Source: a virus. From it: DNA of 56,956 nucleotides. The notes below the pieces were generated by a model, which ran no database searches, was not told where the DNA came from, and saw nothing but the letters and a program-made list of their open reading frames with translations. The translations under genes were made by a program, and so were the position numbers. The stretch spans positions 1 to 56,956 of the IMG/VR virus record IMGVR_UViG_3300036791_000660; one strand, 5' to 3'. This document shows, piece after piece, positions 546-49,648 of the stretch (positions are counted from its first letter, which is position 1; each line of letters starts with the position of its first letter).

Positions 546-581
546 ATCTGCCAGTTACTGTCAGGCACTACTGACGGTCTA

Positions 582-610
582 TTGCCAACTTCTGTCAATA
601 AGCCTATATG
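582..610 (+). promoter_or_regulatory. Sigma70-like promoter for the Gly/Ser-rich gene
   Basis: TTGCCA (582-587), a 17-nt spacer and TATATG (605-610). The first 16 bases, TTGCCAACTTCTGTCA, recur with one change at 1517, which makes this a repeated promoter design. It lies 55 nt before the Gly/Ser-rich gene and just after the pentamer tract. A related GCCA-N5-TGTC element sits at about 550-562. Confidence 0.6.
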
Positions 611-1458: not shown

Positions 1459-1511
1459 CTTGACGAGTCTTGTCAAGGGGCTTGATGGTGGGACCGATTT
1501 GTCCCACCATC
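1459..1511 (+). terminator. Two hairpins ending the Gly/Ser-rich gene
   Basis: The first hairpin is CTTGAC-N7-GTCAAG (1459-1478), immediately after the stop codon. The second is a perfect 11-bp stem, GATGGTGGGAC (1484-1494) with GTCCCACCATC (1501-1511), around a 6-nt loop. The following TTCCCTT is only weakly U-rich, so termination efficiency is uncertain. Confidence 0.6.
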
Positions 1512-1516
1512 TTCCC

Positions 1517-1549
1517 TTGCCAACTCCTGTCACCGCCCTATATTCAGGA
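1517..1549 (+). promoter_or_regulatory. Promoter with operator-like dyad, possibly leaderless
   Basis: TTGCCA (1517-1522), a 16-nt spacer and TATATT (1539-1544). The -10 box sits inside CCCT-N6-AGGA (1536-1549), a one-off match to the CCCT-N6-AGGG dyad of the other early promoters. The ATG at 1551 is 7 nt after the -10 box, where transcription should start. Confidence 0.6.
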
Positions 1550-8199: not shown

Positions 8200-8420
8200 A
8201 ACTGGTCGATGTCACGTGGGGCGACCCGGTCAACATCCTGACGGTCGAGTGCTGCGGCGAGCAGTTCCGCCGGCCCTCGAACTACAGCCGGGTGCGTTGC
8301 CCTCGCTGCAACAAGATCGAGTTGTGGCATCGCGTGCAGCCGACCAAGCCCGGCAGCGGCTTCTTCGATGATCCGGTGATGGAGCAGCCGACATCACCCT
8401 TGACAAGTGTTGTCAGTTAG
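8196..8420 (+). CDS. Small zinc-ribbon protein
   Basis: A 74-residue protein. VECCGEQF followed by RCPRCNKIELW gives two Cys pairs typical of a zinc ribbon. It overlaps the previous stop by ATGA. Such isolated ribbons are common phage accessory genes; function is unknown. Confidence 0.55.
   Translation: MKLVDVTWGDPVNILTVECCGEQFRRPSNYSRVRCPRCNKIELWHRVQPTKPGSGFFDDPVMEQPTSPLTSVVS
8400..8414 (+). promoter_or_regulatory. TTGACA/GACA-N5-TGTC dyad
   Basis: TTGACA (8400-8405) is the left part of GACA-AGTGT-TGTC (8402-8414), overlapping the 3' end of the previous gene and 52 nt before the next ATG. The same dyad recurs beside late-region pentamer tracts. A convincing -10 box at the right distance is not seen, so it may be an operator or a divergent promoter. 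Confidence 0.4.
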
Positions 8421-23242: not shown

Positions 23243-23250
23243 CGCCATGG

Positions 23251-23279
23251 TTGACCTGACAGGTTACGGCACTTATGGT
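23251..23279 (+). promoter_or_regulatory. Candidate promoter before the last rightward genes
   Basis: TTGACC (23251-23256), a 17-nt spacer and TATGGT (23274-23279). It lacks the CCCT-N6-AGGG dyad but follows the long palindrome. The ATG at 23286 would be the transcription start. Confidence 0.5.
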
Positions 23280-23285
23280 CCAGCT

Positions 23286-34535: not shown

Positions 34536-34548
34536 GACAATACCTGTC
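34536..34548 (-). promoter_or_regulatory. GACA-N5-TGTC dyad at the baseplate J start
   Basis: GACA-ATACC-TGTC ends two bases before the start codon and borders the pentamer tract at 34567-34651. Any bound protein would occlude the ribosome-binding region. Confidence 0.5.
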
Positions 34549-34566
34549 AATTCGTGTTTGGTGGGT

Positions 34567-34651
34567 GAAGCCGCGCCACGGCAAGTCCCGGCGGGGCTAG
34601 GCACGTCGAGGCAAGGTCTGGCCCGGCGGGGTTCGGCAAGGCACGGCAGGC
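34567..34651. repeat. GGCAN-type pentamer tract, late copy 1
   Basis: A short tract of ggcac/ggcaa/ggcag-like units on the plus strand, between the gp25/W-like gene and gpJ. It contains no gene. Confidence 0.7.
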
Positions 34652-35044
34652 TTAGAGTGGGATCGGCACGCTCACGTCGATCTTCAGGCCAGCATGAGTG
34701 ACGATGTTGATGCGGTAGACCGGCGTCGTCGGATCAGGGACTTTGGCGATGATCAGCGAGGCGAACTGCGCAGCGAATCGCTTCTGGGTCATCACGACTT
34801 CAAAATCGGGGAAGACCTGCTGCAACACGCTGTAGGCCGCCGCGATGCCCCAGTCGGCATAAAACGGGCTCTCGCCTGCGTTCAGCAGCAGCACCTGCGC
34901 CAGCGCCGTCAGCATCACCATGTCGTTGAAGCCCTTGGCATCGGTCGTGACCACGACCCACTTCTTCGGCCCCTTGTTGAAGCTGATGTTGCTGCCGGGT
35001 GGACCGCCGAGCGGCGTGGCCGGGATGCGGCCGTAGGTCCTCAT
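34652..35044 (-). CDS. Baseplate gp25/W-like protein
   Basis: A 130-residue protein, the usual size of gpW/gp25 baseplate wedge subunits, in the usual position just before gpJ. The segment VMLTALAQVLLLNAGESPFY fits the helix of that family (lysozyme-like fold without activity). The C-terminus has strands ending KIDVSVPIPL. Identity rests on size, position and fold pattern. Confidence 0.6.
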   Translation of the reverse strand: MRTYGRIPATPLGGPPGSNISFNKGPKKWVVVTTDAKGFNDMVMLTALAQVLLLNAGESPFYADWGIAAAYSVLQQVFPDFEVVMTQKRFAAQFASLIIAKVPDPTTPVYRINIVTHAGLKIDVSVPIPL

Positions 35045-35706
35045 GGGACGACCGGGCCGCTGGTGCCCGAGCCGGGCTGCACATTCTGGTGGGTGTGCGC
35101 CGGGAAGACGTGGGTGATGTTGTCGATCAGGGTGCCAGCGGACGTGATGTCGAGGCCCATGCCTTGGAAGTTGAGGTGGAAGCCGCTGTCATCGACCCGC
35201 ATCAACACCTGCCCCTTCCATGTGACGGTGAGGCCGGTCTTGGTGTCGAGGTTGAAGATGATCTGCGAGTTCTCGTCGCGCAGGATCACGCCGTTGGGGC
35301 CGTAGATCAGCGTCTTCTCGGGATCGTCGGTCGGCGTGAAGTTGACGTTGCCACACGGGAAGAACACGCCGGTCGAGAGGTTGCCCGGCGGCGCGTAGGA
35401 CGCCTTGCCTTTGCCGAGCCCCGACATCTCGCCCATGTAGTAGTCGGCGCTGAGCACCAAGCCCTTGGTGCCCTTCTTCAGAGGCCAGCGACAGAACTCC
35501 GGGCCGTACACCGGCATCTTGATCTTGGGCAGCGTCCACTGCGACACGGTCTCGAACTTCACCGTGACGATGGTGCCGGTGGGATCGACCTCATCGACCG
35601 ACGCCGGGTGCGACTTCTGGAGCGCCTGATGGAAGCCGCTCAGCCGGTTGTCGGTGAGGCGGTTCAGACCTTGGATGGCTGGAAAGCGCTGTTGCGTCAG
35701 GTTCAT
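35041..35706 (-). CDS. Central tail spike (gpV/Gp138-like)
   Basis: A 221-residue protein. The N-terminal OB-like part is followed by a beta-stranded shaft (GVILRDENSQIIFNLDTKTG). The C-terminal HVFPAHTHQNVQPGSGTSGP carries the H-x-H apex motif that binds iron in P2 gpV-type membrane-piercing spikes. It overlaps the W-like gene by ATGA. Confidence 0.75.
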   Translation of the reverse strand: MNLTQQRFPAIQGLNRLTDNRLSGFHQALQKSHPASVDEVDPTGTIVTVKFETVSQWTLPKIKMPVYGPEFCRWPLKKGTKGLVLSADYYMGEMSGLGKGKASYAPPGNLSTGVFFPCGNVNFTPTDDPEKTLIYGPNGVILRDENSQIIFNLDTKTGLTVTWKGQVLMRVDDSGFHLNFQGMGLDITSAGTLIDNITHVFPAHTHQNVQPGSGTSGPVVP

Positions 35707-35715
35707 GGTTCTACC

Positions 35716-36849
35716 TCAGAGGGTGGTGCCCTGCTGGACCGGCGGCGCGTCCTGCTTGGTCAGCGCGAACAGGTCGAAGGCCGTGGTCCACGCCTCGCCG
35801 GTGGCCTGCCGGAAGCGGCCGTTGTGGTGCATCTCCTGCACCCGCCAGACGCCTTGGAAGACCGACTTGTCGCGCGACGGCGTCTGGATCGCGGCGATGC
35901 CGGCGGCCTTGGGGTTCGGCGTGGTCGTGTAGGGCTGTTGCAATTCCGTCGGCAGCTTCACGAAGTCGAGGCACTGGATGTCGCCGCGCATCATGGTGAT
36001 GATGCTGATCGTGTAGGCGTTCTTCCATGCCGGCTGGCCGATCAGGTCGTTGAACACGATCTGCTTCGGCTTATCGACGCTGCTGCCGCCGGTCGGCGAC
36101 TCGTTCTGGGCGGCGTCGCTGACATAGATCGTCTTATCCTGCGTGAGGAACTGCACGCCGTAGTAGGGCGAGCCGTTGACGCCCTTCAGGCTGGAGAACG
36201 GACTGCCGGGCAGGGTGCCGTTGGTGTACTTCCTGATCCAGTCGCCCATCTCCGACAGGTTCTGGGCCTGATGGAGGACTTGCCCCGGTGTCTGGAGGTC
36301 GTCGCTGACCTTGCCTTTCACCGTGTACGCACCCGCGCCATAGGTGCCATCGACCATCTGCCGGATCGCGCCGACGAAGTCGAAACCGGGACTCCAGTTG
36401 AAGGTCAGCGGCTGGCCGACGAAGCTCTTGGGGTCGATGCTGTCGGCGATCAGCGGCACGATGGTGAAGTCGATGAAGGTCTGGTTGCCGACCCAGTTGC
36501 CCGAGCTTTGCCAGATCGTGCCCTTGACCAAGAGGTCGGGCAGGTACTGGAGCGACAGCGGAAAGTCGCCCTTGGTCATGCCGGCCCAGATCGAGATGGT
36601 CGCGCCTTGCAGGTCGGTGTCCTGCGCCACCTCCCGAATATCGACGCCATAGATGCGAATCCGTCCGCCTTGGCGCGGCAGGTCGTAGGTAAAGACCGGC
36701 AGGTCGATCACGATGTCGAGCGCCGACGAGTTCGGGCTGCCGTTGATCACCGAGGTGTAGGACGCATCCTTGACGCTGGCGGGAAGCGACGACGACTGCC
36801 AGACCTCGGTCTGGCCGTGCTTGGTTATCGCAATTTTGTAATATCTCAC
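35716..36849 (-). CDS. Baseplate hub protein
   Basis: A 377-residue protein starting with GTG in a GTGA overlap. Position between plug and spike, size, and the beta-rich build (ALDIVIDLPVFTYDLPRQGG; RIRIYGVDIREVA; ISIWAGM) fit the gpD/gp27-type hub that holds the spike. The later part has STNATURE-free strands including GVWRVQEMHHNGRFRQATGE. Assignment is by context and general pattern. Confidence 0.6.
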   Translation of the reverse strand: MRYYKIAITKHGQTEVWQSSSLPASVKDASYTSVINGSPNSSALDIVIDLPVFTYDLPRQGGRIRIYGVDIREVAQDTDLQGATISIWAGMTKGDFPLSLQYLPDLLVKGTIWQSSGNWVGNQTFIDFTIVPLIADSIDPKSFVGQPLTFNWSPGFDFVGAIRQMVDGTYGAGAYTVKGKVSDDLQTPGQVLHQAQNLSEMGDWIRKYTNGTLPGSPFSSLKGVNGSPYYGVQFLTQDKTIYVSDAAQNESPTGGSSVDKPKQIVFNDLIGQPAWKNAYTISIITMMRGDIQCLDFVKLPTELQQPYTTTPNPKAAGIAAIQTPSRDKSVFQGVWRVQEMHHNGRFRQATGEAWTTAFDLFALTKQDAPPVQQGTTL

Positions 36850-37340
36850 GGGCTGATCTCGAACTGGTTGTTGGGCAGCCGGTAGATCAGCGAAGACTCG
36901 AAGAACGGCTTGGCGAGATCGAGCATGGCCGAGATCGTCCCGAGCAGAGTCGCTTGGCCGGGATTGGCCGCCAGTTGGTACTGGAAGGTGGTCGGGCCGG
37001 TGATGAAGACCATCGCGTCGGCCACGTTGTAGGCATCGGGCAGGCAGCCGGCGATGGTGAGCCTGAAGGTGTCGCCGATGCGCAGGTCCTGCGGCACCTC
37101 GGTGGTGCCCGAGACGCGGCCGTTGGCCCACGCCAGCGTCTGAATCTGCAGCCCGGTGCGCGTGCCGGTGAGCGCGCGATGGAAGATCAGGTTGCCGCCG
37201 AGGTCTTGCAGCGTGAGATACCAGCGCTGGCCGAAGATGTTCCACGTCACGCTGGCCGAGTAGACCTGCCCGTCGAGCGTCGGGTTGAAGGCGAACGGCG
37301 GGGCGCCGGGGCCGGGCTGGAAGTCGATGATCGTGGCCAT
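36846..37340 (-). CDS. Baseplate plug-like protein (DUF6983-like) with Ig-like module
   Basis: A 164-residue protein. ASVTWNIFGQRWYLTLQDLG with GNLIFHRALTG (about 30-60) resembles the small baseplate plug family (DUF6983). Residues about 69-136 (ANGRVSGTT...IGDTFRLTIAG...YQLAANPGQATLLG) are an Ig-like module closely related to those in the sheath and baseplate J. It overlaps both neighbours. Confidence 0.6.
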   Translation of the reverse strand: MATIIDFQPGPGAPPFAFNPTLDGQVYSASVTWNIFGQRWYLTLQDLGGNLIFHRALTGTRTGLQIQTLAWANGRVSGTTEVPQDLRIGDTFRLTIAGCLPDAYNVADAMVFITGPTTFQYQLAANPGQATLLGTISAMLDLAKPFFESSLIYRLPNNQFEISP

Positions 37341-38092
37341 CAGTGCGCCGCCGAATAGGACGGAGTGCCGACGACGGGCAGCGGCGTGTTGGTCGCGACC
37401 GGCACGATGGCCGACGTGCCCGGCGGGGCGCCTCCGGCGACGGCGCTGGTCTGCAGGCCGCTGAGCGGCGGCTGGCCGATCACCTGCTTGCCGCCGTTGG
37501 CGGCGTCGAGGATGTCGTTCAACTGGCTGGTGATGCCCTGCGCGTCGTCCAGCGTGATCAGCGGCTTCTCGAAGTCGAGCGCCCACGAGGTCTGCACCTG
37601 CTTGGTGCCCGACGAGGAAGTATCACGCATCGAGCGCATCACGCAGTTGGCGTAGAGGAACGACGGCGTCAGGCAGTGATAGAGGCCGCCTTGGCGGTTG
37701 TGCTGCTCGAACGCCGTCTGCAACAGCATCATCACCGGCAGCTTGGTGAACATGCCGAGCGCACCGCGTGCCGGGCAGATCATCTGGTAGGTGATCGACA
37801 GCGGCTTGGTCAGCGCCGAGTTGGCGGCCGTCACTTGATTTGCGAACGGGTAGTGGGCGATGTCCTGATCAATCATCGTCGCGCCGGGCATCGGCGTGTA
37901 ATGGCAGAAGCAGTTGTCGAGGCTGATGCCCTCGGGCGCGGTCAGCAGGCCCGTCGCGAAGTTGACGGCTTCTGTCAGCGCGATGATCGGCATCATCTGG
38001 AACGGAAAGTTCTTGAAGATGCCGCCCTTGAAGATGATCGGCGAAAGCTCGAAGGCGAGCTTCCATGCGTTGTAGCCCACGGTGCCAGCCAT
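37340..38092 (-). CDS. Tail protein between tape measure and baseplate
   Basis: A 250-residue protein. A globular N-terminal part (LSPIIFKGGIFKNFPFQMMP; ITYQMICPARG) is followed by a low-complexity Pro/Gly/Ala tail (about 205-250). Position suggests a baseplate initiator or hub-associated subunit. No family is firmly recognised. Confidence 0.5.
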   Translation of the reverse strand: MAGTVGYNAWKLAFELSPIIFKGGIFKNFPFQMMPIIALTEAVNFATGLLTAPEGISLDNCFCHYTPMPGATMIDQDIAHYPFANQVTAANSALTKPLSITYQMICPARGALGMFTKLPVMMLLQTAFEQHNRQGGLYHCLTPSFLYANCVMRSMRDTSSSGTKQVQTSWALDFEKPLITLDDAQGITSQLNDILDAANGGKQVIGQPPLSGLQTSAVAGGAPPGTSAIVPVATNTPLPVVGTPSYSAAH

Positions 38093-38100
38093 CGCTCACC

Positions 38101-39972
38101 TCACAGCGGGAACGGTGGCGGCGCGAACGCCGCCTGTTCGAGCGACGCCACGACCGAGCCGCCAGTGGCATCGTTGATCGTGACGCCGGCACCGCCGGCC
38201 GGCGCGCCGCCGGCGTACATGTTGCCGCCGAGCGCACGCTCGCGCTGGGCCACCATCTGGGCGACGCTGACGCCGGATACCTTATCGGCCCAGCGTGACG
38301 ACACGCTGTAGGGCTGGCCGCTAGCCCACATCGAGAACACGTCGCGGCTGGTGTGATACTTGTTGAGATATTCGTTCACCATGGCGGACGCGATCTGGTC
38401 CTGCATGCCGGGGTTCGACAGGTACTCTTGCGGCGACACGGTGCGGCCGAGCACGCGGCGGCTCATGGTGGCCAGCGTGCCCGGCATCAGTTGATAGGCG
38501 CCGAGCGCACGGCCTTGCCCCGGCACGTTCGCGCCGAGGATGCCGTAGTTGCCGCTGCTCTCGAACTGCTTGATGACCTGAAGAATCTTCTCCGGGCTGG
38601 CGACGATCTCGCCCTCGTGGACGCGGGCGTCCATGTCGTGCGGCACCACGCCGCCTTCTTGGTAGGCCCCGGTCGTGCCGCCCGACGAACTCGACGGCTG
38701 ACCCGACGCCAGCCAGTCCTGATAGGGCATCGGATTGATGCCGAGCTTCATCGACTCCCGCTGGTAGGCGTCATAGCGCCGCTTGTTGATGCGGTCGCGC
38801 TGCCAGCCCGGCATCTCCTCGGTGGTCGGCATGAAGCCGGGATTGCTGCGCAGCAGGTCGGGCGTGCTGGTGGGCGCGGCCGGCGGCGTGCCCGGCGCAC
38901 CCGTGAACCGCGCGATGAACTCGTAGATCGCCTTGCCGGCCTCAAACAGGCCCTTGGCGAACTTCTCGATGTAGTCCGGCAGCTTCTCCATGAACTCCTT
39001 GAACTCGGGCCGCTGCACCCACTCGCCGATCTTCTTCACGAACACCTCGGCGAAATGCTCCAGCGCCGGCAGGAGCGGCGTCAGGCCCTCGGCGATCAGC
39101 TTCCGCAACCGGCCGGTCACATCTTCCAGCGCGTCCTTGAACTCGCTCCACGCCTTCTCGGCGCCCTCGCGGATGCCGTACTTGCCGACGCCCGCCGTGA
39201 CGCTCTGTTCCTGCTTGGTGATGTCGGCGTCGCTCATGCCGACGGCGCGCTGGACATCCTGCGTGCTCAGCACGCCGCTCAGCCCCATCGCCTCCAGTTG
39301 CCCGGCCCACATGCCCTTGTTGACGCCGCCGAACTTGGACTTCAGCGCCCGGTTGAGGCCCCGGATGTTCTGGAACGCGCCGGCCTCGGGATTGAGCCCG
39401 AGCGCCCGCATGCCGATGTAGGCCGGGCTGCCGATGTCGGCCTGCGCGCCCGCGAAGGCGTCCATCAGCCCTTCGACGTTCATGCCGGTGCCGCCCAAGC
39501 CGATGCGCAGTGACTCGATCTGGCCGGGCGCCATGCCGAGCCCGGCGCGCGTCGCCCGCGTGCCCCGGATCGCATCGGCGAGCTTGTCGAGGCCAAATAG
39601 CAGGCCGCCGCCACCAACCGCACCCGAGATGCCGGCCCACCGCATGAAGCCGAGGCTGGCGTCCTTGATGTGGATCGCGAAGCTCTTGGCGTGCTCGCGC
39701 AGCTTGCCCCACGACACCACCGAATCGCGGGCGTGCACCGCCACGTCCTTGTGGTGGGCGACGATCTGGCGGCCGAGGCTGGCCTGCGCCGTCATCGCCG
39801 CCGTCATCCTCGACATATTTTCCATCGCCGCGCGCTGCTCGGCGGTGACGTTCTTCCAGTCCTTCGGCGTCTGCGCCAGCATCTTGGAGTATTTGGCGAA
39901 GGCGTCTTGGAAGCGCTTGAACTGTTGCTCGTTGACTTCAATGTCAACGACTGATTTTGCGTTTACTGCCAC
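38101..39972 (-). CDS. Tape measure protein with C-terminal lytic transglycosylase
   Basis: A 623-residue protein. GTG at 39972 has GGAGG 5 nt upstream; longer starts lack one. The N-terminal half is helical, with glycine-rich hydrophobic segments (GISGAVGGGGLLFGLDKLAD). The region about 465-590 has QFESSGNYG with the likely catalytic Glu, then GAYQLMPGT and a long helical end, as in SLT-type transglycosylases. Tail-tip muralytic domains open peptidoglycan during DNA injection. It follows the tail chaperones as usual. Confidence 0.8.
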   Translation of the reverse strand: MAVNAKSVVDIEVNEQQFKRFQDAFAKYSKMLAQTPKDWKNVTAEQRAAMENMSRMTAAMTAQASLGRQIVAHHKDVAVHARDSVVSWGKLREHAKSFAIHIKDASLGFMRWAGISGAVGGGGLLFGLDKLADAIRGTRATRAGLGMAPGQIESLRIGLGGTGMNVEGLMDAFAGAQADIGSPAYIGMRALGLNPEAGAFQNIRGLNRALKSKFGGVNKGMWAGQLEAMGLSGVLSTQDVQRAVGMSDADITKQEQSVTAGVGKYGIREGAEKAWSEFKDALEDVTGRLRKLIAEGLTPLLPALEHFAEVFVKKIGEWVQRPEFKEFMEKLPDYIEKFAKGLFEAGKAIYEFIARFTGAPGTPPAAPTSTPDLLRSNPGFMPTTEEMPGWQRDRINKRRYDAYQRESMKLGINPMPYQDWLASGQPSSSSGGTTGAYQEGGVVPHDMDARVHEGEIVASPEKILQVIKQFESSGNYGILGANVPGQGRALGAYQLMPGTLATMSRRVLGRTVSPQEYLSNPGMQDQIASAMVNEYLNKYHTSRDVFSMWASGQPYSVSSRWADKVSGVSVAQMVAQRERALGGNMYAGGAPAGGAGVTINDATGGSVVASLEQAAFAPPPFPL

Positions 39973-39975
39973 GAC

Positions 39976-39991
39976 ACCCTCCATTGAGGGC
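39976..39991 (-). promoter_or_regulatory. CCCT-N6-AGGG dyad overlapping the tape measure ribosome-binding site
   Basis: On the minus strand it reads GCCCTCAATGGAGGGTGT; the right arm supplies GGAGGG, the ribosome-binding site for the GTG at 39972. It is the same dyad as at the early promoters, without a -10 box. Confidence 0.5.
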
Positions 39992-40014
39992 AGAGGATGG
40001 CAGCCGTGAAGCCA

Positions 40015-40107
40015 CCATCCTCCCTTGCCGTGCCTCGACATGCCTCAACACGACACGCCCTGCATTGCAGCGCCTTGCCACGTCGCGCCATGTCTGATGC
40101 CAGAGAC
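40015..40107. repeat. GGCAN-type pentamer tract, late copy 2 (inverted)
   Basis: Units run as GGCAC/GGCAA/GGCAT on the minus strand, opposite to the other tracts. It lies between the tail chaperone gene and the tape measure gene. It contains no gene. Confidence 0.7.
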
Positions 40108-40114
40108 CGCATTG

Positions 40115-40127
40115 GACAGGAGGTGTC
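40115..40127. promoter_or_regulatory. GACA-N5-TGTC dyad beside the inverted pentamer tract
   Basis: GACA-GGAGG-TGTC at 40115-40127, adjoining the tract, on the side opposite to that in the other late copies. It is thus in the same relative order if the whole unit is flipped. Confidence 0.5.
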
Positions 40128-40136
40128 AATCATGGC

Positions 40137-40831
40137 CTACCCCCGACGTAGCAGTGCCACGAGATGGCGGTGCCGGTAGTCGTGCGCGGTGCGCCACTCG
40201 AACTCGGGCGTGCGGTCGGCGAACACGTCCACGAAGCCCTCGGTGACGATCCAGTCTAAACAGGAATGGAAGACGGATTCGCCGTCTCGCCAATACTCAC
40301 GGCCGGCGTCGATGTCGGCAAAGAACTGCGGTAGTCCGTACAGGTGGAGGAGGTGATCCGCGAACCGGACGCCGCGAACAGCGGGTAGATCATGTCCCGG
40401 CGCTCCGAGGGCGTGTGCGCCCACGAAGCTCCCGTAAAAAAAACCAGTTGGTTCCTGATGTTCTGCGCGTCGTCGTCGTTGATCAGCTTGTCGCTGATCG
40501 ACTTCTCGAAGGGCAGCATCTGCCAGCCGCCGCTGCCATCCGGGGCAAGGACGTTGGTCAGTCGCCAGATTTCGGCAAGGAGGTGTTGCTCGACGTTCGG
40601 GCGGTTCATCTTGGCCGCCGCGTCTTGCAGCATCAGGAGGCCCACGCGGGGCATCATGAAGGGGGCGATGCCTTCCTCGTACATGGCCGACATCATGCGG
40701 CTCAGCACGAGGAAGTTCGCCTCGTAAATCTCGCGCCTGACCGGCGTCGAGTGGACGAAGATGTCTTGGCCTTTTTCGTCCGTCACCGTGAAGACGATGT
40801 TCAGCTTGCGGTCGATCTGCGGGTCTGCCAT
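40137..40831 (-). CDS. Tail assembly chaperone frameshift product (gpGT-like)
   Basis: Predicted product of a -1 frameshift on T8 (40443-40436): 132 residues of the upstream frame joined to 99 residues of the downstream frame, ending at 40137. The downstream part looks like real protein (HLLHLYGLPQFFADIDAGRE; DRTPEFEWRTAHDYRH) and has no good start of its own. In many phages gpG and gpGT chaperone the tape measure, and this pair lies exactly between tail tube and tape measure. Confidence 0.75.
40256..40831 (-). CDS. Tail assembly chaperone (gpG-like), unshifted product
   Basis: A 191-residue product of the zero frame. It starts KLNIVFTVTDEKGQDIFVHS, like many small tail chaperones. The segment after the slippery site (residues 133-191) is Ser/Thr/Pro-rich and of lower quality than the -1 frame. 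The usual translation product would be this form, with a minority shifting. Confidence 0.75.
   Translation of the reverse strand: MADPQIDRKLNIVFTVTDEKGQDIFVHSTPVRREIYEANFLVLSRMMSAMYEEGIAPFMMPRVGLLMLQDAAAKMNRPNVEQHLLAEIWRLTNVLAPDGSGGWQMLPFEKSISDKLINDDDAQNIRNQLVFFTGASWAHTPSERRDMIYPLFAASGSRITSSTCTDYRSSLPTSTPAVSIGETANPSSIPV
40436..40443 (-). other. Slippery T8 site for -1 frameshift
   Basis: Zero-frame codons are GTT TTT TTT ACG. The heptamer T TTT TTT lets both tRNAs re-pair after a one-base slip back. The -1 frame then reads TAC GGG AGC and stays open to 40137. Confidence 0.75.
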
Positions 40832-40852
40832 GGGGTCTGCCTTTCTGTCTAT

Positions 40853-40868
40853 GCCCTCATTTGAGGGC
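40853..40868 (-). promoter_or_regulatory. CCCT-N6-AGGG dyad in the tail chaperone leader
   Basis: GCCCTCATTTGAGGGC is a perfect palindrome 22-37 nt before the ATG at 40831, and could also form a hairpin with a 4-nt loop. An ACCTAA...TTAGGT dyad lies next to it (40872-40893, overlapping the tail tube stop). Confidence 0.55.
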
Positions 40869-40887
40869 GTACCTAACTAGAGTCTAA

Positions 40888-41340
40888 TTAGGTCTCCCAC
40901 AGGAGCGAGTTGATCAGGACGTAGCCGCGCATCGAGACGCGGAAGCCGGCATCGGTGCCGGAGAACGCCTGCTCGGCGACGTTCTCGATGGCGCAGTTGA
41001 TCAGTTGGTAGATGCCGATGCCGGGCGAGTTGAGCGGCACGTCGGGGTGAACCTGCCCGTCGCCGATCATCGCATCGCTCTCCATCTTGGCCTTGTAGAG
41101 TTGGGCAAGCTGCTGGGTCTTCAGCAGCGCCATCGTCATGGTGAACATCTGGTAGGGCTCGGGGCTGGTGACCGCGCCGGTCATCGACGGCAGGAACACC
41201 GTGGTGCCGCCGTCGAGCGCGAGCCGGATGCCTTCGGCCCCCAGATAGGACGCCGTGACGTTAAGGTCGGGGAAGTCGGGCCAGATGACCGACGCCCGCA
41301 GCCGGTTCAGCGAGCCTTGCGCAACAAGCGGATTCGCCAT
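40888..41340 (-). CDS. Tail tube protein
   Basis: A 150-residue protein, the typical size of contractile tail tube subunits, placed between sheath and chaperones. It is beta-rich (RLRASVIWPDFPDLNVTASY; GTTVFLPSMTG), with a helix around TMALLKTQQLAQLYKAK. Identity follows from position, size and fold pattern. Confidence 0.7.
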   Translation of the reverse strand: MANPLVAQGSLNRLRASVIWPDFPDLNVTASYLGAEGIRLALDGGTTVFLPSMTGAVTSPEPYQMFTMTMALLKTQQLAQLYKAKMESDAMIGDGQVHPDVPLNSPGIGIYQLINCAIENVAEQAFSGTDAGFRVSMRGYVLINSLLWET

Positions 41341-41358
41341 GTCTGTCTCCCTTCAGCC

Positions 41359-43008: not shown

Positions 43009-43027
43009 GGAGGAGGTCTCCTGTCGA

Positions 43028-43309
43028 TCACGAGAAGACGACGTTGTAACTGCCCGTCAGCGGTGCCTTGACCGAGATGCCGACCGACGCCGAGGAGTTG
43101 AGCGGCAGCAACTGCCCGGCCACCATGGTGGCGGGGAAGCCCGCGATGGCGAGACCCGCGCCGCCGGTCGTGACATCGTTGATCAGGTCGATGGTGCCCG
43201 GCGTCAGGCAGAGCACGCTGACGACGGTGCCGGGCTTGGCCTTCAGCACCTGCACCGTGTTGAGGCCGCGCTTGATGCCGGCGGTCAGGAACATCTGGTT
43301 CTGCGGCAT
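43028..43309 (-). CDS. Small structural protein next to sheath
   Basis: A 93-residue all-beta protein (VQVLKAKPGTVVSVLCLTPG; SASVGISVKAPLTGSYNVVF). Size and position before the sheath suggest a tail terminator or virion decoration protein. No family is recognised. Confidence 0.5.
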   Translation of the reverse strand: MPQNQMFLTAGIKRGLNTVQVLKAKPGTVVSVLCLTPGTIDLINDVTTGGAGLAIAGFPATMVAGQLLPLNSSASVGISVKAPLTGSYNVVFS

Positions 43310-43327
43310 GGCTTCGTTCTCCTGCTT

Positions 43328-44389
43328 TTAAGGAACGGGGATGGGCACCTGTTCGAGGAAGGTGTCCTGCGCGTAGACCTTCGCGAACGCCTCGGTGATC
43401 AGTTGCCGGGCGATCTGGCGCATGGCGAACTGGTTGTAGGACACGTCGAGGATGATGTGCTTGCGCTCGGCGAGAACCAGCATCTCGGTCTGGAACTTCT
43501 TGTCGTCGCGGATCACGCCCATGACCCCCGCGATGCCGAACAGTTCGGTGTCGAGCGTGTACTGGTAGAGCGCGGCGAGGAAGTCCTGCGCCATCCGGTT
43601 GGTCGCCCCGTAGAGCGTGATGGTGACGCGATCCTGCGCAAGCTGGAGCGACGACATCGTGTCATCGAACGCCGGGGCCATCTGGAGGGCGACCGTCGAG
43701 TCGGGCTCGATGTGCACCGTGCCGAACGGCGGGCGCAGGTTCAGCCCGGACAGGAACGACGGGTAGAGCGTGATCGACGGGAACGGGATCAGCACCGGAT
43801 AGAGCGGCGCATAGCGGTTGATGGCGAGGAACGCCGGCAGCGAGTTCGAGACGATCAGCGCGTCCACGTCGAAGCCCGACGGGTCGTCAATGATCTGCGA
43901 CTCCATGTCGGCGTTGATCGCCTGTCCGACATAGTGGTGCAGGTTCGACTGCTGGAAGTAGCTGCCGCGCGCCGAGAAGGCGAAGCGGATGCCGTCGAAG
44001 GCGCCGATGTAAAGCTGGTTCGGGCTGATGACGTTGAAGTCTTGGATCGGGTCCTCGGCCGAGAAGATCACCCGGTTGGTCGCGTAGTTCTCGTCCAAGG
44101 TCTGGTGCAGGTCGGTGATGTAGTGCACCGCGCCCATGATGGTCTTGGTCGGCGCCGGCACCGTGACCGAGGCCGCCTGATTGAGCGCGAACGTGTTGAG
44201 CGGCCCGCCCTTGCCGAGCACCGCGCCCATGTTGACGGTCGCGGCCTTGATCCAGAACACGAAGCCGTCGGCCGGCAGCACGAGCCGATTGTAGAGCGTA
44301 AAAACAATCTCCTGATCGAGGTCGAGCGTGTCGAGGCCGGCTTTGAGCGCATTGCCCATCGCTGTTCGGATGCCGTCGTCAATCGCCAC
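43328..44389 (-). CDS. Neck or tail-associated structural protein
   Basis: A 353-residue protein of unknown family. GPLNTFALN (62-70) recurs twice in the baseplate protein at 31739. The remainder is alpha/beta (ITDLHQTLDENYATNRVIFS; LQLAQDRVTITLYGATNRMA). Its place between neck genes and the sheath points to the neck or tail connector. Confidence 0.5.
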   Translation of the reverse strand: MAIDDGIRTAMGNALKAGLDTLDLDQEIVFTLYNRLVLPADGFVFWIKAATVNMGAVLGKGGPLNTFALNQAASVTVPAPTKTIMGAVHYITDLHQTLDENYATNRVIFSAEDPIQDFNVISPNQLYIGAFDGIRFAFSARGSYFQQSNLHHYVGQAINADMESQIIDDPSGFDVDALIVSNSLPAFLAINRYAPLYPVLIPFPSITLYPSFLSGLNLRPPFGTVHIEPDSTVALQMAPAFDDTMSSLQLAQDRVTITLYGATNRMAQDFLAALYQYTLDTELFGIAGVMGVIRDDKKFQTEMLVLAERKHIILDVSYNQFAMRQIARQLITEAFAKVYAQDTFLEQVPIPVP

Positions 44390-44390
44390 G

Positions 44391-44723
44391 TCAGACCTGC
44401 ACCTTCCAGCCGTAGGCCGCCAAGTAGGCCGCCGTGTAGGCGATGCGATGGCCCTGCATGGGCGAGATCGGTGCCCACTGCTTGCTCGCCTTTTCCCAGC
44501 GCATCAACTTGCGCTCGTCGCCGCCCGGCGTGATCAGCCACATCATCGCGCCGTCCTCGGTGCCCTCGGGCGGCAGGCACTTGCTCTCCGGGTTGATCGT
44601 CACGGTCGGCATGGGCAGCGCGCCCGCGCGAATGTGGCCAACTCCCGGCACAAACATATGCTCGGTCTTGGCGGCCATCGCCTGCGCGTGCGGGCTCAGG
44701 ATTCGCGAGAGGTCAGGCATCAC
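44391..44723 (-). CDS. Hypothetical structural-block protein
   Basis: A 110-residue protein. Its C-terminus has MMWLITPGGDERKLMRWEKA and HRIAYTAAYLAAYGW. It is the first gene after a pentamer tract. No family is recognised. Confidence 0.5.
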   Translation of the reverse strand: MMPDLSRILSPHAQAMAAKTEHMFVPGVGHIRAGALPMPTVTINPESKCLPPEGTEDGAMMWLITPGGDERKLMRWEKASKQWAPISPMQGHRIAYTAAYLAAYGWKVQV

Positions 44724-44734
44724 TGCACCTCATT

Positions 44735-44747
44735 GACAAATGTTGGC
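44735..44747 (-). promoter_or_regulatory. GACA-N5-TGGC dyad (imperfect)
   Basis: GACA-AATGT-TGGC on the plus strand. On the minus strand CATTTGTCAAT is identical to that at 49.5 kb. It sits 12 nt before the ATG at 44723 and adjoins the pentamer tract. Confidence 0.45.
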
Positions 44748-44752
44748 GGATG

Positions 44753-44892
44753 CGGTCAGTCGTCGGCAGCCACGGCCAGTCGCGGGATGGCAAGGCCTGT
44801 CACGGCAGCGCTAGGCAGCGCCCGTCGTGGCTCGCCACGGCAAGGCGAGTCGGGGAAGGCACGGCACGGGGAGGGACGGCTCAGCGATGGGC
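44753..44892. repeat. GGCAN-type pentamer tract, late copy 3
   Basis: Units such as ggcaa, ggcac and cgcca on the plus strand over about 140 nt between two late genes. It contains no gene. Confidence 0.7.
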
Positions 44893-44899
44893 CGTCCCT

Positions 44900-45406
44900 T
44901 CAGTCCACCCAAGCCCGAAAAGAACTCAAATACAAACCAGTATCGACAAAACTCGGACGCCGGCCGCGCTTGGCGTAGGGATGGGCGAAGCGGTGCGACA
45001 CGCCGTGCAGCGCCGCCATCGTCGGCGTGCCTGCGATACCAACGCGCTCGACTTCGCCCTCGCTGATGAATTTGTCGAACGCGACCTTGACCTTGTCCAA
45101 GTCGGTGTCGGTGAGTTTCATGGGCTCGTCGTCACTGCCCTGCTCACCCCGCGCACCGCGCATCATCAGAGTCTCGATCTTGCCCGCCATGGCGTCGGCC
45201 ATCGCCGTGTCGATGTCGCCGACATGCACCTCGAAGAACTTTTCCATGATGCCGTAGCGGTGTTCCAAGATTCGCGCGACATCGAATGTGGTGCGCGAGC
45301 CGATCTGGGCGCGCTTGCGGCGGCGGCCCTTGCCCTTGCGGCCGACAAGGGCCGGCCCGGCGGTGCGATAGGGCTGATCGACAACACCGAGATGCAGGAC
45401 GGTCAT
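44900..45406 (-). CDS. Neck/tail completion-type protein
   Basis: A 168-residue protein. It has a basic N-terminal half (VGRKGKGRRRKRAQIGSRT) and a C-terminal AKRGRRPSFVDTGLYLSSF, with the DTG-L--S pattern seen in HK97 gp10-like and virion-morphogenesis proteins. Position between head-connector and tail genes agrees. Confidence 0.5.
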   Translation of the reverse strand: MTVLHLGVVDQPYRTAGPALVGRKGKGRRRKRAQIGSRTTFDVARILEHRYGIMEKFFEVHVGDIDTAMADAMAGKIETLMMRGARGEQGSDDEPMKLTDTDLDKVKVAFDKFISEGEVERVGIAGTPTMAALHGVSHRFAHPYAKRGRRPSFVDTGLYLSSFRAWVD

Positions 45407-45612
45407 CGGCCTTCCTCCTGCTCCGCCAGATGGAAGCGCTGCAGCACCTGCGCCAGCTTGATGCCGTCATCTGTCTTGAGGAAGCGCACGATCTCGACCT
45501 GTGGCACGCCGGTGTCGAGCTTGATCGTCACCGAGCGCACGCCCGCGATGTCGATGTCGAGGGCGCGGCAGATGTCGCCGACGATCTTCAGGCGATTGTA
45601 GGATTCGGTCAT
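45403..45612 (-). CDS. Small hypothetical protein
   Basis: A 69-residue protein (LKIVGDICRALDIDIAGVRS; VPQVEIVRFLKTDDG) with a helix and strands, overlapping genes on both sides by ATGA. No family is recognised. Confidence 0.5.
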   Translation of the reverse strand: MTESYNRLKIVGDICRALDIDIAGVRSVTIKLDTGVPQVEIVRFLKTDDGIKLAQVLQRFHLAEQEEGR

Positions 45613-46139
45613 GCCGTGAGGTCCCAGATGGTCGGGCCGTAGGCCATCGCCAGCGTGATGTAGTCGCGACCCCATGGCGTCTTCATCATCTGGAGGTCGC
45701 CCGGCGTCATGGTCTTGGCCCAGTCGGGGATCAGGAAGCCGACCGAGCTTCCCTGATCCGAGGTGGACTGCACGAAGCCCGGCGTGAACGAGTTGAGCCC
45801 GTAGCTGGCGCGCAGGTCCTTCCAGTAGGTGTTGAGCGGCGGCGTCAGCGTCGCATCGTCGGCCGCGTAGTTGACCAGCCGGTCGCCGGCGAAGTTGTAG
45901 ATCGCCCACGCGATGTACGAGGGCGGCTGCGGGAAGAAGCTGGCGTAGGGCGTGGCCGACGGGGCCGCGCCCAGAAGCTGCGGCGCGCCGACCACGCCCA
46001 GCACCTCGTTGACGATCAATTCGGCCGCGTCGAGCGTCAGCGGGATGATGTTGGCGGTGTCCGGCAACACCGACGCCGGCACCATCATCACGTCGCGGAT
46101 GAAGGTCAGCCAGTCGGTGAGGTTGGCGTCGGCCGCCAT
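45609..46139 (-). CDS. Head-tail connector-type protein
   Basis: A 176-residue protein. It has a helical N-terminus (LTDWLTFIRDVMMVPASVLP) and AWAIYNFAGDRLVNYAADDA in the middle. Its place two genes after the capsid suggests an adaptor or connector. No family is firmly recognised. Confidence 0.5.
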   Translation of the reverse strand: MAADANLTDWLTFIRDVMMVPASVLPDTANIIPLTLDAAELIVNEVLGVVGAPQLLGAAPSATPYASFFPQPPSYIAWAIYNFAGDRLVNYAADDATLTPPLNTYWKDLRASYGLNSFTPGFVQSTSDQGSSVGFLIPDWAKTMTPGDLQMMKTPWGRDYITLAMAYGPTIWDLTA

Positions 46140-46140
46140 G

Positions 46141-46644
46141 TCACTCTGCCGTGCCGGTGTCGTCGCGAACCTTCATGCGGAAGCCCTCGGCGAGGCCCTG
46201 CTGGCCGCCGCGATCCATCGTGCCGGCCTTCTCCTCCTCGACCGAGAGCGCCACGTTGTCGGCCGCGTTGGGCGAGAAGTTGCGCATGCCGTGGCTGGCG
46301 GCGATGGCCGCTTCCTTCCTGATCGTGGCGCCGCGCTCGTGCAGGATGCGGGCGTTCAGTTCGATGATGCGCAGCATGGTGTCGTGCGCCACCGGCTTGT
46401 CGATGCTGTAGAGCATCGGCACCATGCCCTCGGCCGCGTAGTGCGCCGCGTCGCTCGCCTTGCGGCTGCCGTAGGTCTCGCACTGCGCGATCAGCGAGTC
46501 GATCTGAAGCTGGTTCAGTTCTCCCGCGATGCGCGCCTGCCGGCCCACGTCGATGTGCTGCACGGCGTGGCCGCCCAAGCGCTCGGGCAGCCGGTAATTG
46601 AACGTCTGCACCTGCGAGGTGCAGTTGGCGAGATAGAACTTCAT
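46141..46644 (-). CDS. Virion-block protein following the capsid genes
   Basis: A 167-residue protein starting MKFYLANCTSQVQTFNYRLP, a beta-rich opening, with a helical C-terminal half (MLRIIELNARILHERGATIR). The longer reading frame that extends upstream is a shadow of the capsid gene. Overlap with the previous stop supports this start. No family is recognised. Confidence 0.55.
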   Translation of the reverse strand: MKFYLANCTSQVQTFNYRLPERLGGHAVQHIDVGRQARIAGELNQLQIDSLIAQCETYGSRKASDAAHYAAEGMVPMLYSIDKPVAHDTMLRIIELNARILHERGATIRKEAAIAASHGMRNFSPNAADNVALSVEEEKAGTMDRGGQQGLAEGFRMKVRDDTGTAE

Positions 46645-46865
46645 CGGTGGTCTCCCTTCCTGTCTGCGCCGTTGACGAAGAAAGTCTCGATGGTCTTGCC
46701 GTCGGCGTTCAGGATGTAGGCGTTGGCCTCCAAGGTGAACGTCTTGGCGTGCAGTGTGCCGGCGTCGCACACCGCCACCGCTTCCGGGTGCCGACGGAAC
46801 GTGACGTGGCCGGCTTCGACCATGTCGAAGCCCTTCCCGCCCCGTTCCATCAGCTTCAGGAACAC
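46641..46865 (-). CDS. Small protein after the major capsid gene
   Basis: A 74-residue protein. The start is GTG 46865 or ATG slightly downstream. It is beta-rich (GHVTFRRHPEAVAVCDAGTL; LEANAYILNADG). It may be a small capsid decoration protein, from position only. Confidence 0.5.
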   Translation of the reverse strand: MFLKLMERGGKGFDMVEAGHVTFRRHPEAVAVCDAGTLHAKTFTLEANAYILNADGKTIETFFVNGADRKGDHR

Positions 46866-46871
46866 GGAACC

Positions 46872-47894
46872 CTACTGGTACTGCGCCGAGAGGATGGTGA
46901 TCGCCTCCGGGCGGATGCCCCAACCGGAAGTGATGCGCCACTCGCTCAGCACGTCGGTCGCCCCGCCGGCCAGCGGCGAGGTGATCTCCTTGGGAGCCGC
47001 CATGTCGCAGTACATCGCAAGGCAGGCATTGTTGCCCGGCGACAGCTTGGCGAACTCGTTGGTGTTGATGCCGTCCTCGGTCGGCTTCTCGACCTCCGGC
47101 ATGGTGATGATGATGGCGTCGTTGCCGCCGGCACCCTTGCCGATCAGCGTGTCGTCGTAGGTCCACAGCAGCGTGTCGCCGTTCATCATCGCCACTTCCT
47201 TGACGACGCCGGCCGTGGTGGTCGAGCCCGCGCCCTGACGCTGGTACTGCGTCAGTTGCACGATGCCGGGGTACTCGAACTGTTCGAGGTCCCGCTGCGG
47301 GCCGCAGATGGTGAACTTGCGCCCGACGCCCAACTGGTTGGTGCGGGTCTTGATCGCACCGAGAAGCTGGAGCAGCAGGAACGCCATCTGGCCGTTGTCG
47401 TAGGTGACGATGGTCGTGTTGCCGTTGGAGTCGGGCGGCAGGTTGACCGCCGTCGCGCCGGCCGCGTTCAGGATGCCCTCGCCCTGCGCCGGGTTCATGC
47501 CGTACAGCAGCGCGTTGCGGGCAAGCTGGAAGTGACCTTGGCGCATGCCGAGCCGGTAGGCTTCCGGCAGGCCGATGCCCCACTGCGAGGCCGCCGCCTC
47601 GTCGTGGTGGTTGTAGATCGAGCGGACCTGCAACAGGTAGGTCGGGGTCGAGAACTGCCCGAGGATGATCTGCACGCCCGGCAGGCTGTTGTACGACGCC
47701 GGCCCAGCGGCCATCGTCGTACGGACATCGACCCGCTTCATGTAGACGTAGAGATCGCCCTCATCGAGCTTGTTGCGCGGCTCGCCGCCTTCGATCAGGT
47801 CGAAAGCGCCGGACGCCTGCGCATACGGCAGCAGGAGGTCGGGTTCCACCAGCGACGGGTTGACGATGGTGAAGGCTGGCGCAAGCAGTGCCAT
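46872..47894 (-). CDS. Major capsid protein (DUF2184-like)
   Basis: A 340-residue protein. LRTTMAAGPASYNSLP-like and GINTNEFAKLSPGNN segments, VRSIYNHHDEAAASQWGIGL and a C-terminal SEWRITSGWGIRPEAITIL fit the DUF2184 family, a capsid type with the HK97-like role. Position after scaffold-like and decoration genes agrees. No N-terminal prosegment is obvious. Confidence 0.7.
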   Translation of the reverse strand: MALLAPAFTIVNPSLVEPDLLLPYAQASGAFDLIEGGEPRNKLDEGDLYVYMKRVDVRTTMAAGPASYNSLPGVQIILGQFSTPTYLLQVRSIYNHHDEAAASQWGIGLPEAYRLGMRQGHFQLARNALLYGMNPAQGEGILNAAGATAVNLPPDSNGNTTIVTYDNGQMAFLLLQLLGAIKTRTNQLGVGRKFTICGPQRDLEQFEYPGIVQLTQYQRQGAGSTTTAGVVKEVAMMNGDTLLWTYDDTLIGKGAGGNDAIIITMPEVEKPTEDGINTNEFAKLSPGNNACLAMYCDMAAPKEITSPLAGGATDVLSEWRITSGWGIRPEAITILSAQYQ

Positions 47895-47908
47895 GGTTCA
47901 GTCCTCCC

Positions 47909-48538
47909 CTAGATCACGACGAGGGCGGCGGCGCCGTTGCGATTCCACGTCGCGACGCCTGAGCCCGTCGTGAAGTTGACGGTCATGGAGTTGGTCGGCT
48001 TGACCCGCAGGATGCGGACCGGCAGCGGCAACAGCGCGCCGATGGCGATGATGCGCTGGTTGACGAAGTCCCACGACACCGCCTGCGTGATGATGTTGCC
48101 GTACAGGCCGACCAGCGCCGGGTCGATGGCGAGCGAGAGGCGCGCCCCCGAGCCGAGCCGGTAGAAGTTCACCTGCATGTAGCTGGTGGCCAGTGGCACC
48201 GGCGAGTTCGGCGTGTTGATCATGGCGTAGTCCTGATCGAACACCGAGAACCCGGTGATCGCCCCGGCGGTGCTCGCCGGGCTGACGATGGTGGCCCGCT
48301 TGATCGGGCCACCGAGTTCGGTGGCCGGGTTGGCGCCGCTCGCGGCGAGAGGCACCGCCTCGGTGATCGCGATGCCACCGAAGAACGGATCGGTTTCGCT
48401 CGGGTCCACGTAGCCGCCCGCGAGGGCGAACATGGTGGCGGGGTCAGGCTGGGCCGTGCCTTGGACAAGGCCATCCCAAGACACGCCAAAGGAGCCGGCC
48501 GCATTGCCGGTCTGTTGCGGGTTGAGGTTGATGGTCAT
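47909..48538 (-). CDS. Capsid decoration/cement protein
   Basis: A 209-residue protein rich in beta segments (FFGGIAITEAVPLAASGA; YMQVNFYRLGSGARLSLAID). It directly precedes the capsid gene in transcription, the usual place of the cement protein in DUF2184 phages. Identity is by context. Confidence 0.5.
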   Translation of the reverse strand: MTINLNPQQTGNAAGSFGVSWDGLVQGTAQPDPATMFALAGGYVDPSETDPFFGGIAITEAVPLAASGANPATELGGPIKRATIVSPASTAGAITGFSVFDQDYAMINTPNSPVPLATSYMQVNFYRLGSGARLSLAIDPALVGLYGNIITQAVSWDFVNQRIIAIGALLPLPVRILRVKPTNSMTVNFTTGSGVATWNRNGAAALVVI

Positions 48539-48545
48539 GGCTGGA

Positions 48546-49490
48546 TCAGTCCTTCTTCAGGTTGATCGCGGTGACGAACCGCTTGTTGGGCGCGTGGCGG
48601 TTCATCCACGAAGCCGGTGAGCCCATGAACCGGGTTTCGAGATGGCCGGAATCCCGGCGAGTCTGGATGGCGCGCAGCGTGCCGACGGGAACGCTTGCCG
48701 GATCGCGGGCGGCGGCCTTGGCCGCTGCGTAAATCTGGTCGCGCACGGTGCGCAGCGCGGCCTCATCGACCGCCATGATGGCGAGATCGACGCCCTTCCA
48801 TTGCGGCGAGTGCTTCTTGAAGCGCTCCATCTGCCGCAGGTCGTAGCTGGTCGCCGTGTCGCCGATCAGCGGACGCGGAGCTTGCAGGCCGAACATCCCA
48901 TCGACCGAATCGCAGGCATGCTGGTTGGGCGCGAGGTCGTGGTCCGAGCGCTCCTTCGGCATGCGCTTCTCCAGCGCCGCCATGCGCTTGCGCAGCGCAT
49001 TGAGATCGACCGCGTCGGTGGCAACCTCCTTGTCCTTGGGCGGCGGCGGTGGCGGCGCCTCGTCGTCGTCATCGTCGTCATCGTCCTTCTTCGCCTCGCC
49101 CTTCTTCTTGTCGGCCGCGACCGGCACCGGCTCGCCCGTGCCCGGAGGAGGCGGCGGCTTCTTGGCCGGCGGTGGCGGCGGCGCCTGATCGTCGTCGTCG
49201 TCGTCCTTCATCACCGGCGCGACGGGCGGCGACACTTCCTTGGGCGGCGGCGCCTCGGCGTCCTTCTTGGCGACGGCCGCAGCGGCTTCCGCCGGGCTGT
49301 GATCGTCGTCATCGTCGTCGTCCTTCTTGCCCTTGAGGCTGGCGAACTTGCTCTCGAAGGCGTCCATCCGACCGCCCATCGAGTCCAACTTTTTGTCGAG
49401 CGCATCCAAGCCCTTCAAAAGTTTGTCGAGATGCGTCCCACCGCCAGCATCGGCGGCGACCTTCGGCTTGTCCTTGTCCTTTTCAGCCAT
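48546..49490 (-). CDS. Scaffold-like protein with Asp and Pro tracts
   Basis: A 314-residue protein from ATG 49490 with GAGGAGAA upstream. The N-terminus is a coiled coil (LDKLLKGLDALDKKLDSMGG). The middle (about 55-175) alternates poly-Asp and poly-Pro runs (DDDDDDQAPPPPPAKKPPPP). A second coiled coil (LRKRMAALEKRM) leads to a C-terminal domain with LGALRAIQT-like and GSPASWMNRHAPNKRF segments. Composition and position between DUF2213 and capsid fit an assembly scaffold. Confidence 0.6.
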   Translation of the reverse strand: MAEKDKDKPKVAADAGGGTHLDKLLKGLDALDKKLDSMGGRMDAFESKFASLKGKKDDDDDDDHSPAEAAAAVAKKDAEAPPPKEVSPPVAPVMKDDDDDDQAPPPPPAKKPPPPPGTGEPVPVAADKKKGEAKKDDDDDDDDEAPPPPPPKDKEVATDAVDLNALRKRMAALEKRMPKERSDHDLAPNQHACDSVDGMFGLQAPRPLIGDTATSYDLRQMERFKKHSPQWKGVDLAIMAVDEAALRTVRDQIYAAAKAAARDPASVPVGTLRAIQTRRDSGHLETRFMGSPASWMNRHAPNKRFVTAINLKKD

Positions 49491-49519
49491 GACTGTTCTC
49501 CTCGGCTGGTTGGGTGATT

Positions 49520-49532
49520 GACAAATGCTGTC
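49520..49532 (-). promoter_or_regulatory. GACA-N5-TGTC dyad
   Basis: GACA-AATGC-TGTC, 30 nt before the scaffold-like gene and next to the pentamer tract. TTGACA is formed on the plus strand. Confidence 0.5.
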
Positions 49533-49550
49533 TGTCTGGATAGCCGATGC

Positions 49551-49620
49551 ATTCGACATGGCGCGGCGAGGCCCGTCGTTGCAACGCGAGGCAAGCCGAG
49601 GCAAGGCAAGGCGTGGCTAT
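49551..49620. repeat. GGCAN-type pentamer tract, late copy 4
   Basis: Units such as ggcgc, ggcga and ggcaa on the plus strand over about 70 nt. It contains no gene. Confidence 0.65.
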
Positions 49621-49648
49621 CTGGGACGGCGCTTACGCGCCGTCCCTC

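Follow-up and report, generated by a model that had tools for sequence, protein, structure and literature searches.

The record IMGVR_UViG_3300036791_000660 of the virus database IMG/VR is a linear 57-kb fragment of a myovirus genome (56,956 nucleotides (nt), hereafter the window), whose late genes, at about 24–56 kb, all lie on the minus strand. Inserts of 117–179 nt were found at four late junctions, separating baseplate and baseplate wedge genes (unit U1), tail-assembly chaperone and tape measure genes (U2), two neck genes (U3), and protease and scaffold genes (U4). Each insert combines a short palindrome, or dyad, with an array of GGC-like triplets (Table 1). A sequence-only reading had placed such units between scaffold, neck, tape measure and baseplate modules, and these junctions were confirmed. 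The left end of the contig lies inside a further GGC-like array (U0).

Read on its own strand, each unit shows the same order, namely a TTGACA-N5-TGTC palindrome and then a pentamer array, followed in all units but U1 by a GC-rich hairpin. The distance from the first base of the palindrome to the first array triplet is 31–37 nt in all four units, and the arrays hold 13–20 near-GGC triplets with two variable bases between triplets. U1, U3 and U4 are on the plus strand and U2 is on the minus strand; dyad, tract and hairpin are inverted together at 40 kb, so the joint flip of order and strand described earlier is real. The hairpin stems are GGGACGG..CCGTCCC in U3 and U4 and GGATGG..CCATCC in U2, differing in sequence with pairing kept.

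The claim that four late gaps each hold a GACA-N5-TGTC dyad, one of them imperfect, beside a GGCAN tract was borne out, with perfect dyads at 34536, 40115 and 49520 and a one-mismatch dyad at 44735. The whole window contains four perfect dyads where 0.6 would be expected, the additional one being at 8402; four is also the maximum in 200 order-2 Markov sequences. One-mismatch dyads in the window are not enriched (27 vs. 22.8 expected). A 17-base-pair TTGACA-N5-TGTCAA matrix from six sites gave 21–28 bits at the sites and at best 10–19 bits in 20 random sequences, a comparison that is partly circular because the sites trained the matrix. The 5-nt phase of the tracts was also confirmed. The best score of 12 phased GGC triplets (maximum 36, on the named strand) was 33 in U1, 29 in U2, 31 in U3 and 32 in U4, above all 500 dinucleotide shuffles of each gap (0/500 reaching the unit score; shuffle maxima 25, 23, 27 and 24, respectively). 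At a score of at least 28, the window yielded 5 hits in the phased scan, compared with 1 hit in the late regions of relatives (1.40 Mb).

Table 1. Positions in the window of the repeat units, of the matching sites in the phage's own genes and of further dyads.
Feature	Position	Strand	Sequence or composition	Remarks
U1 dyad	34536..34548	+	GACAATACCTGTC	candidate promoter/operator of U1; 2 nt from baseplate wedge start codon (minus-strand gene); 36 nt before array
U1 array	34570..34647	+	16 triplets (GGC/GTC/GGT/GCC)	guide dinucleotides AC AA CC GG TA AC GA AA CT CC GG TC
Own U1 target, wedge gene	34379..34417	-		20/26; recoded at 4 dinucleotides
U2 dyad	40115..40127	-	TTGACACCTCCTGTC	35 nt before array
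U2 array	40020..40094	-	15 triplets	inverted relative to U1, U3 and U4; guide dinucleotides AT GC GT AA GC AA AG GT GT GA AT GA
U2 tail hairpin	39995..40020	-	GGATGGTGGC-TTCAC-GGCTGCCATCC	fold z -4.3
Own U2 target, tape-measure gene start	39934..39972	-		21/26; mismatched to guide at GTG start codon and TCA serine
U3 dyad	44735..44747	+	GACAAATGTTGGC	one mismatch; 31 nt before array
U3 array	44764..44863	+	~20 triplets	most degenerate of the units
U3 tail hairpin	44873..44898	+	GGGACGGC...GCCGTCCC	
Own U3 target	44907..44957	+		24/34; antisense of last codons of neck gene 44900-45406
U4 dyad	49520..49532	+	GACAAATGCTGTC	37 nt before array
U4 array	49555..49619	+	13 triplets	guide dinucleotides AT GC GA CC GT AA GA AA GA AA AA GT TA
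U4 tail hairpin	49623..49646	+	GGGACGGCGC-TTAC-GCGCCGTCCC	fold z -3.4
Own likely U4 target, scaffold gene start	49452..49490	-		16/26; not significant alone
U0, long degenerate array	14..545	+	~110 GGC-like triplets	contig left end
Dyad without array	8400..8416	+	TTGACAAGTGTTGTCAG	
Two dyads (548, 582)	548..598			582 overlaps promoter-like TTGCCA-N17-TATATG ahead of gene at 667
Two dyads (1460, 1517)	1460..1533			around a hairpin; 1517 overlaps TTGCCA-N16-TATATT

The closest relative found was IMGVR_UViG_3300046675_000480 (head protein 86% and sheath 69% identical). In this relative and two others the matching junctions show overlapping stop and start codons or gaps of 0–10 nt, protease and scaffold form one open frame in the two relative contigs where that junction is readable, and no arrays were found in the two contigs read whole. 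With no such gap in related phages, the units represent clean insertions. The suggestion that dyad and tract behave as one movable unit is thus supported by the gapless relatives and by the preserved internal order of the inverted copy. In the window (48546-50623) protease and scaffold are two genes, and in the relatives L129 and L130 they share one open frame; in L129 an internal ATG with a Shine-Dalgarno sequence stands at the scaffold start, and U4 is exactly at the protease/scaffold split of the window.

The variable dinucleotides of each unit were read as a guide, spaced by 0–3 skipped bases, and relatives were scanned on both strands; 1000 order-shuffled guides at skip 1 served as the null. 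In every unit skip 1 outscored both skip 0 and skip 2, and the perfect score at skip 3 was the array matching itself. The best sites in relatives reached 23/26 for U1 and 29/34 for U3 (0/1000 shuffles each), and 22/26 for U2 (3/1000). For U1 the site is at about codon 40 of the baseplate wedge gene (L007), for U2 it covers codons 1–13 of the tape-measure gene, with the start codon included (L006/L131), and for U3 it is the end of the neck gene's coding sequence, its final codons read in antisense (L147, L139, L202 and others). In all three the skipped base is the wobble base of the codon, the antisense sites of U3 included. The best U4 site is an ATG-GCC-GAG start in L200 at the expected scaffold position, where the scaffold protein itself did not align; the U4 target is probably the scaffold gene start, a reading that rests mainly on position. 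No target of U0 exceeded the shuffles in the guide search.

Exact patterns of the guides were additionally scanned in 2.9 million viral contigs. Nine dinucleotides of U1 gave a single match, in the wedge gene of relative L361, which extends to 24/24 over twelve dinucleotides, yet the L361 wedge is only 48% identical to that of the window. The U1 guide (ACn AAn CCn GGn TAn ACn GAn AAn CTn CCn GGn TCn) meets ACC AAT CCC GGC TAC ACC GAC AAT CTG CCC GGT TCG in L361, and the window's own wedge reads ACG AAT CCG GGT TTC AGC GGA AAT TTG CCG GGC TCG at this place. The U3 pattern gave seven matches, all in homologues of the adjacent neck gene. Accidental periodicity and accidental matches in GC-rich intergenic sequence could be suspected from the unenriched one-mismatch dyads and from U4, which alone is marginal. 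For U1–U3 this is refuted by the shuffle tests and by the coincidence of the best sites with the homologue of the adjacent gene, and chance as a general explanation is extremely improbable.

The phage's own copies of these genes match the guides less well. Within 1 kb on either side of each unit, the best own-genome match is in the adjacent gene (P = 0.0005 for U1, 0.0005 for U2 and 0.001 for U3; not significant for U4). The own alleles differ at guide positions, in part by synonymous changes outside the wobble base, namely leucine TTG in place of CTN at the U1 site and, at the U2 site, serine TCA instead of AGN and the start codon GTG instead of ATG. The skip rule would register such changes, which favours rivals' alleles as targets and recoded own alleles, although U2 fits its own site nearly as well. 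Guides that regulate the adjacent late genes of the phage itself, keeping for example scaffold, tape measure or baseplate off until late, would also account for every best own-genome match being in the adjacent gene in codon register, including 21/26 at the own tape-measure start for U2. A self-regulator could easily stay perfect, since guide and gene are less than 200 nt apart in one genome, but the own mismatches are 6/26 (U1), 5/26 (U2), 10/34 (U3) and 10/26 (U4), and it is L361 that matches U1 at 24/24; we regard self-regulation as unlikely.

Arrays of the GGC-N2 type are widespread in viral contigs, with at least 120 stretches of eight phased GGC triplets (loci L009-L128 and L212-L322). 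An unbiased scan gave 332 arrays in 109 of those loci, with a mode of 9–13 triplets. No multi-array locus had arrays on both strands (0/77; a biased sample agrees), and the arrays are intergenic and mostly sense to both neighbours (415 vs. 17 antisense, with a simple gene caller). Among 398 proteobacterial genomes nine matched, most with pure tandem repeats and about four with a degenerate array. Clustering of 2404 proteins from array loci revealed one family with a single member in each of 126 array loci, in 96 of them within 400 nt of an array (P = 3e-47). Its profile matches PDB 36pp, 'SUSP1 Vipr protein' (E = 6e-36), it corresponds to PHROG 4652, and its AlphaFold model (pLDDT 91) matches Csm3/Cas7 RAMP subunits, so the family was identified as Vipr, with a predicted Cas7/Csm3-like fold. 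Among the contigs searched that carry the head-gene family of the window, a single one bears an array (G025/L197/L358), and a Vipr gene was found in that contig alone. A second, smaller family, PHROG 15946, present in 35 loci and beside arrays in 32, is probably an accessory (vap) protein.

Two other explanations of the arrays had been considered. A TRAP-like ring protein was dropped once Vipr was found (PF02081 is absent from 20 array-bearing contigs), and a two-quartet G-quadruplex or R-loop element was rejected by reasoning, as it would neither require the invariant C nor allow GTC. BLASTN of the arrays against GenBank phages gave no match or weak, chance-level matches, and a literature search by repeat string, before the name Vipr was known, found nothing.

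A preprint of 2026 (PMC13142463) describes VIPR (Viral Interference Programmable Repeat), with types from Escherichia phage SUSP1 and a Pseudomonas fulva prophage. Its vrRNAs carry 9–16 YNNGG repeats with conserved GGY and hypervariable NN and a structured tail, DNA is recognized by pairing of each NN with one base skipped, and clustered guide arrays are directed against satellites, prophages and other VIPRs (PMC13142463).

We consider it likely, judging from sequence patterns, that the units are dispersed guide-RNA genes of the VIPR type directed against rivals' alleles of the adjacent gene. The TTGACA palindrome would act as promoter or operator of a vrRNA made of GGC-like triplets and guide dinucleotides and closed by the hairpin tail. 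Vipr would be supplied by the missing part of the genome or by another element. In a co-infected cell, the Vipr-loaded vrRNA would bind the rival's baseplate wedge, tape measure, neck and probably scaffold gene and silence it or mark it for cutting, and the mismatches in the phage's own alleles are expected to spare its own genes. The inverted 40-kb unit would be no puzzle, because U2 would simply be a gene on the other strand. Recombination hot spots or late regulatory sites, two of the roles offered by the sequence-only reading, are not what the data point to; the tract is no structural spacer, its dinucleotides reading as guides to the neighbouring gene's homologue. Its third suggestion, a minimal mobile element, may survive in changed form, as an RNA gene targeting the allele that has no insert.

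Several observations weigh against guide-RNA genes of this type. A Vipr gene was not found in the 57-kb contig with subgroup profiles, with PHROG 4652 or by reading the remaining early open reading frames, and neither was a famB-type vap accessory gene; that the left end lies in an array is an excuse, and not evidence, for the missing vipr gene. The triplets are loose, with exact GGC in 7–10 of 12–16 per unit and GTC common, and ordinary arrays exceed 90%. Unlike in ordinary VIPR loci, the arrays occupy both strands, and three of the four run antisense to the flanking genes. No tail hairpin was seen in U1, and no standard -10 box at the units. The U2 guide matches its own tape-measure start (21/26) nearly as well as the best rival site (22/26), and its exact pattern occurs in four unrelated contigs among the 2.9 million, with no true target; the U4 pattern gave no match there. 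The best U4 site (21/26, 34/1000 shuffles), from a lysine/glutamate-rich guide, is non-significant alone.

The looser triplets suggest that part of the set may be decaying. A stronger version, in which all units are decaying vrRNA genes of a lost VIPR system, draws on the same missing Vipr gene and on triplets degraded to 50–70% GGC. Decay would leave unexplained that the TTGACA-array spacing of 31–37 nt, the pentamer phase and hairpins with paired changes are kept, that the guide dinucleotides still fit rival sequences at up to 24/24 although their decay should be the most rapid, and that the contig still has a 110-triplet array at its left end. Relics are therefore improbable.

The dyads also occur apart from arrays. 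Because a dyad stands alone at 8400 and others overlap promoter-like boxes at 582 and 1517, the dyad appears to be a regulatory site in its own right, and the regions 548-598 and 1460-1533, ahead of early genes, are probable operator/promoter regions of a phage regulator. These sites also favour the view that the dyads of the late gaps are repressor or activator operators, similar to L5 stoperators, with the tract as an accidental or structural spacer. We consider this very unlikely, as the pentamer phase and the guide-target matches would go unexplained, and the dyad is best read as the promoter or operator part of a guide gene. The fixed distance between dyad and array fits a -35 or operator box with a putative transcript start at about the first triplet. 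Consensus searches found no sigma70 promoters at 34.4–49.9 kb, and an Rfam search gave no match.

A guide and its resistant allele might further form one linked selfish unit that attacks rivals' uninserted copies, an RNA-guided form of allele exclusion or 'homing', which we propose tentatively and by analogy. Recombinants would retain the vrRNA gene and the immune allele together. Cutting of the target would let repair copy unit and resistant allele jointly; with silencing only, linkage would still hold guide and immunity together in recombinants. In ordinary VIPR arrays, matching to the adjacent gene is not enriched (564 arrays), and in a second scan of 816 arrays, the units of the window included, 12 reached P ≤ 0.005 against about 4 expected.

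Two further loci were noted. In an unrelated phage, a lone array between baseplate genes (L295:6168, plus strand) is antisense and has a 19/24 codon-register match in the adjacent gene, possibly a second case of a linked guide. Similarly, an array in L069 (minus-strand offset 8079) lies beside vipr (432-1154, minus strand) and its guide partly matches its own vipr gene, which is consistent with guides against rivals' VIPR systems. Both suggest that a linked guide and partly matching gene are not confined to the phage of the window.

Among other genes of the window, the tail-assembly chaperone pair (40256-40831 and 40137-40424, minus strand) occupies two frames with a T-run between the two genes near 40436-40444, likely a programmed frameshift. 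The gene at 667-1457 encodes a secreted-looking protein of mostly Gly/Ser repeats. A NADAR-domain protein (18419-18988) and a weak Lar-type restriction-alleviation match (23247-23570) are possible counter-defence genes. The weak, sub-threshold Anti-TRAP match at 11354-11884 (zinc-binding CxxCxGxG) is probably a generic DnaJ-like zinc motif.

Compared with known systems, CRISPR differs in that its guides pair along an uninterrupted stretch and depend on repeats and cas genes, none of which were seen in the window. The Cas7/Csm3 RAMP effectors resemble Vipr in its RAMP-like predicted fold. L5-type stoperators share with the window TGTCAA dyads spread through the genome, but stoperators have no guide array.

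The likeness to VIPR is closer. The units consist of pentamers with a fixed triplet and a hypervariable dinucleotide, with 12–20 phased triplets per unit, above all shuffles, and with a looser consensus than typical; array length agrees as well, and the hairpins of U2, U3 and U4, with none in U1, may correspond to the structured tail. The arrays are intergenic and occur in phages, and their guides match genes of competing phages with a 1-nt skip at the wobble base for U1, U2 and U3, and marginally for U4. Set against the available part of the preprint, the units differ in being scattered singly over a late operon and not grouped at a vipr locus, in the antisense orientation of three of four and the common GTC, CGC and GCC triplets, and in targets that are homologues of the adjacent gene instead of satellites or lysogeny regulators; the vipr gene, moreover, is not in the window fragment. 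The guide code was here recovered independently from raw metagenomic sequence, which lends the one-base-skip rule support from nature, and the four guides of a single operon each read as a rival's neighbouring gene, three firmly and one probably. The attacker, its victim and the attacked site are thereby clearly predicted.

In T-even phages, freestanding homing endonuclease genes of the SegF and MobE type are inserted between genes close to the site they attack, namely the uninserted allele that a related phage has of the adjacent gene, and their own allele is resistant. In the window, the own target sites are 40–150 nt from the arrays, relatives are uninserted and the own alleles are mismatched. 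The difference is that the window has an RNA guide and not a nuclease gene, that no cutting enzyme was identified, and that spread by co-conversion is conjectural. Such a homing-endonuclease-like linkage of guide and own allele appears to be new relative to the available part of the one VIPR preprint. If true, programmable repeats could pass from gene to gene within phage populations with no need of CRISPR-like acquisition machinery, and guides arising and travelling beside the resistant allele would be a possible answer to how they originate and spread without an adaptation module.

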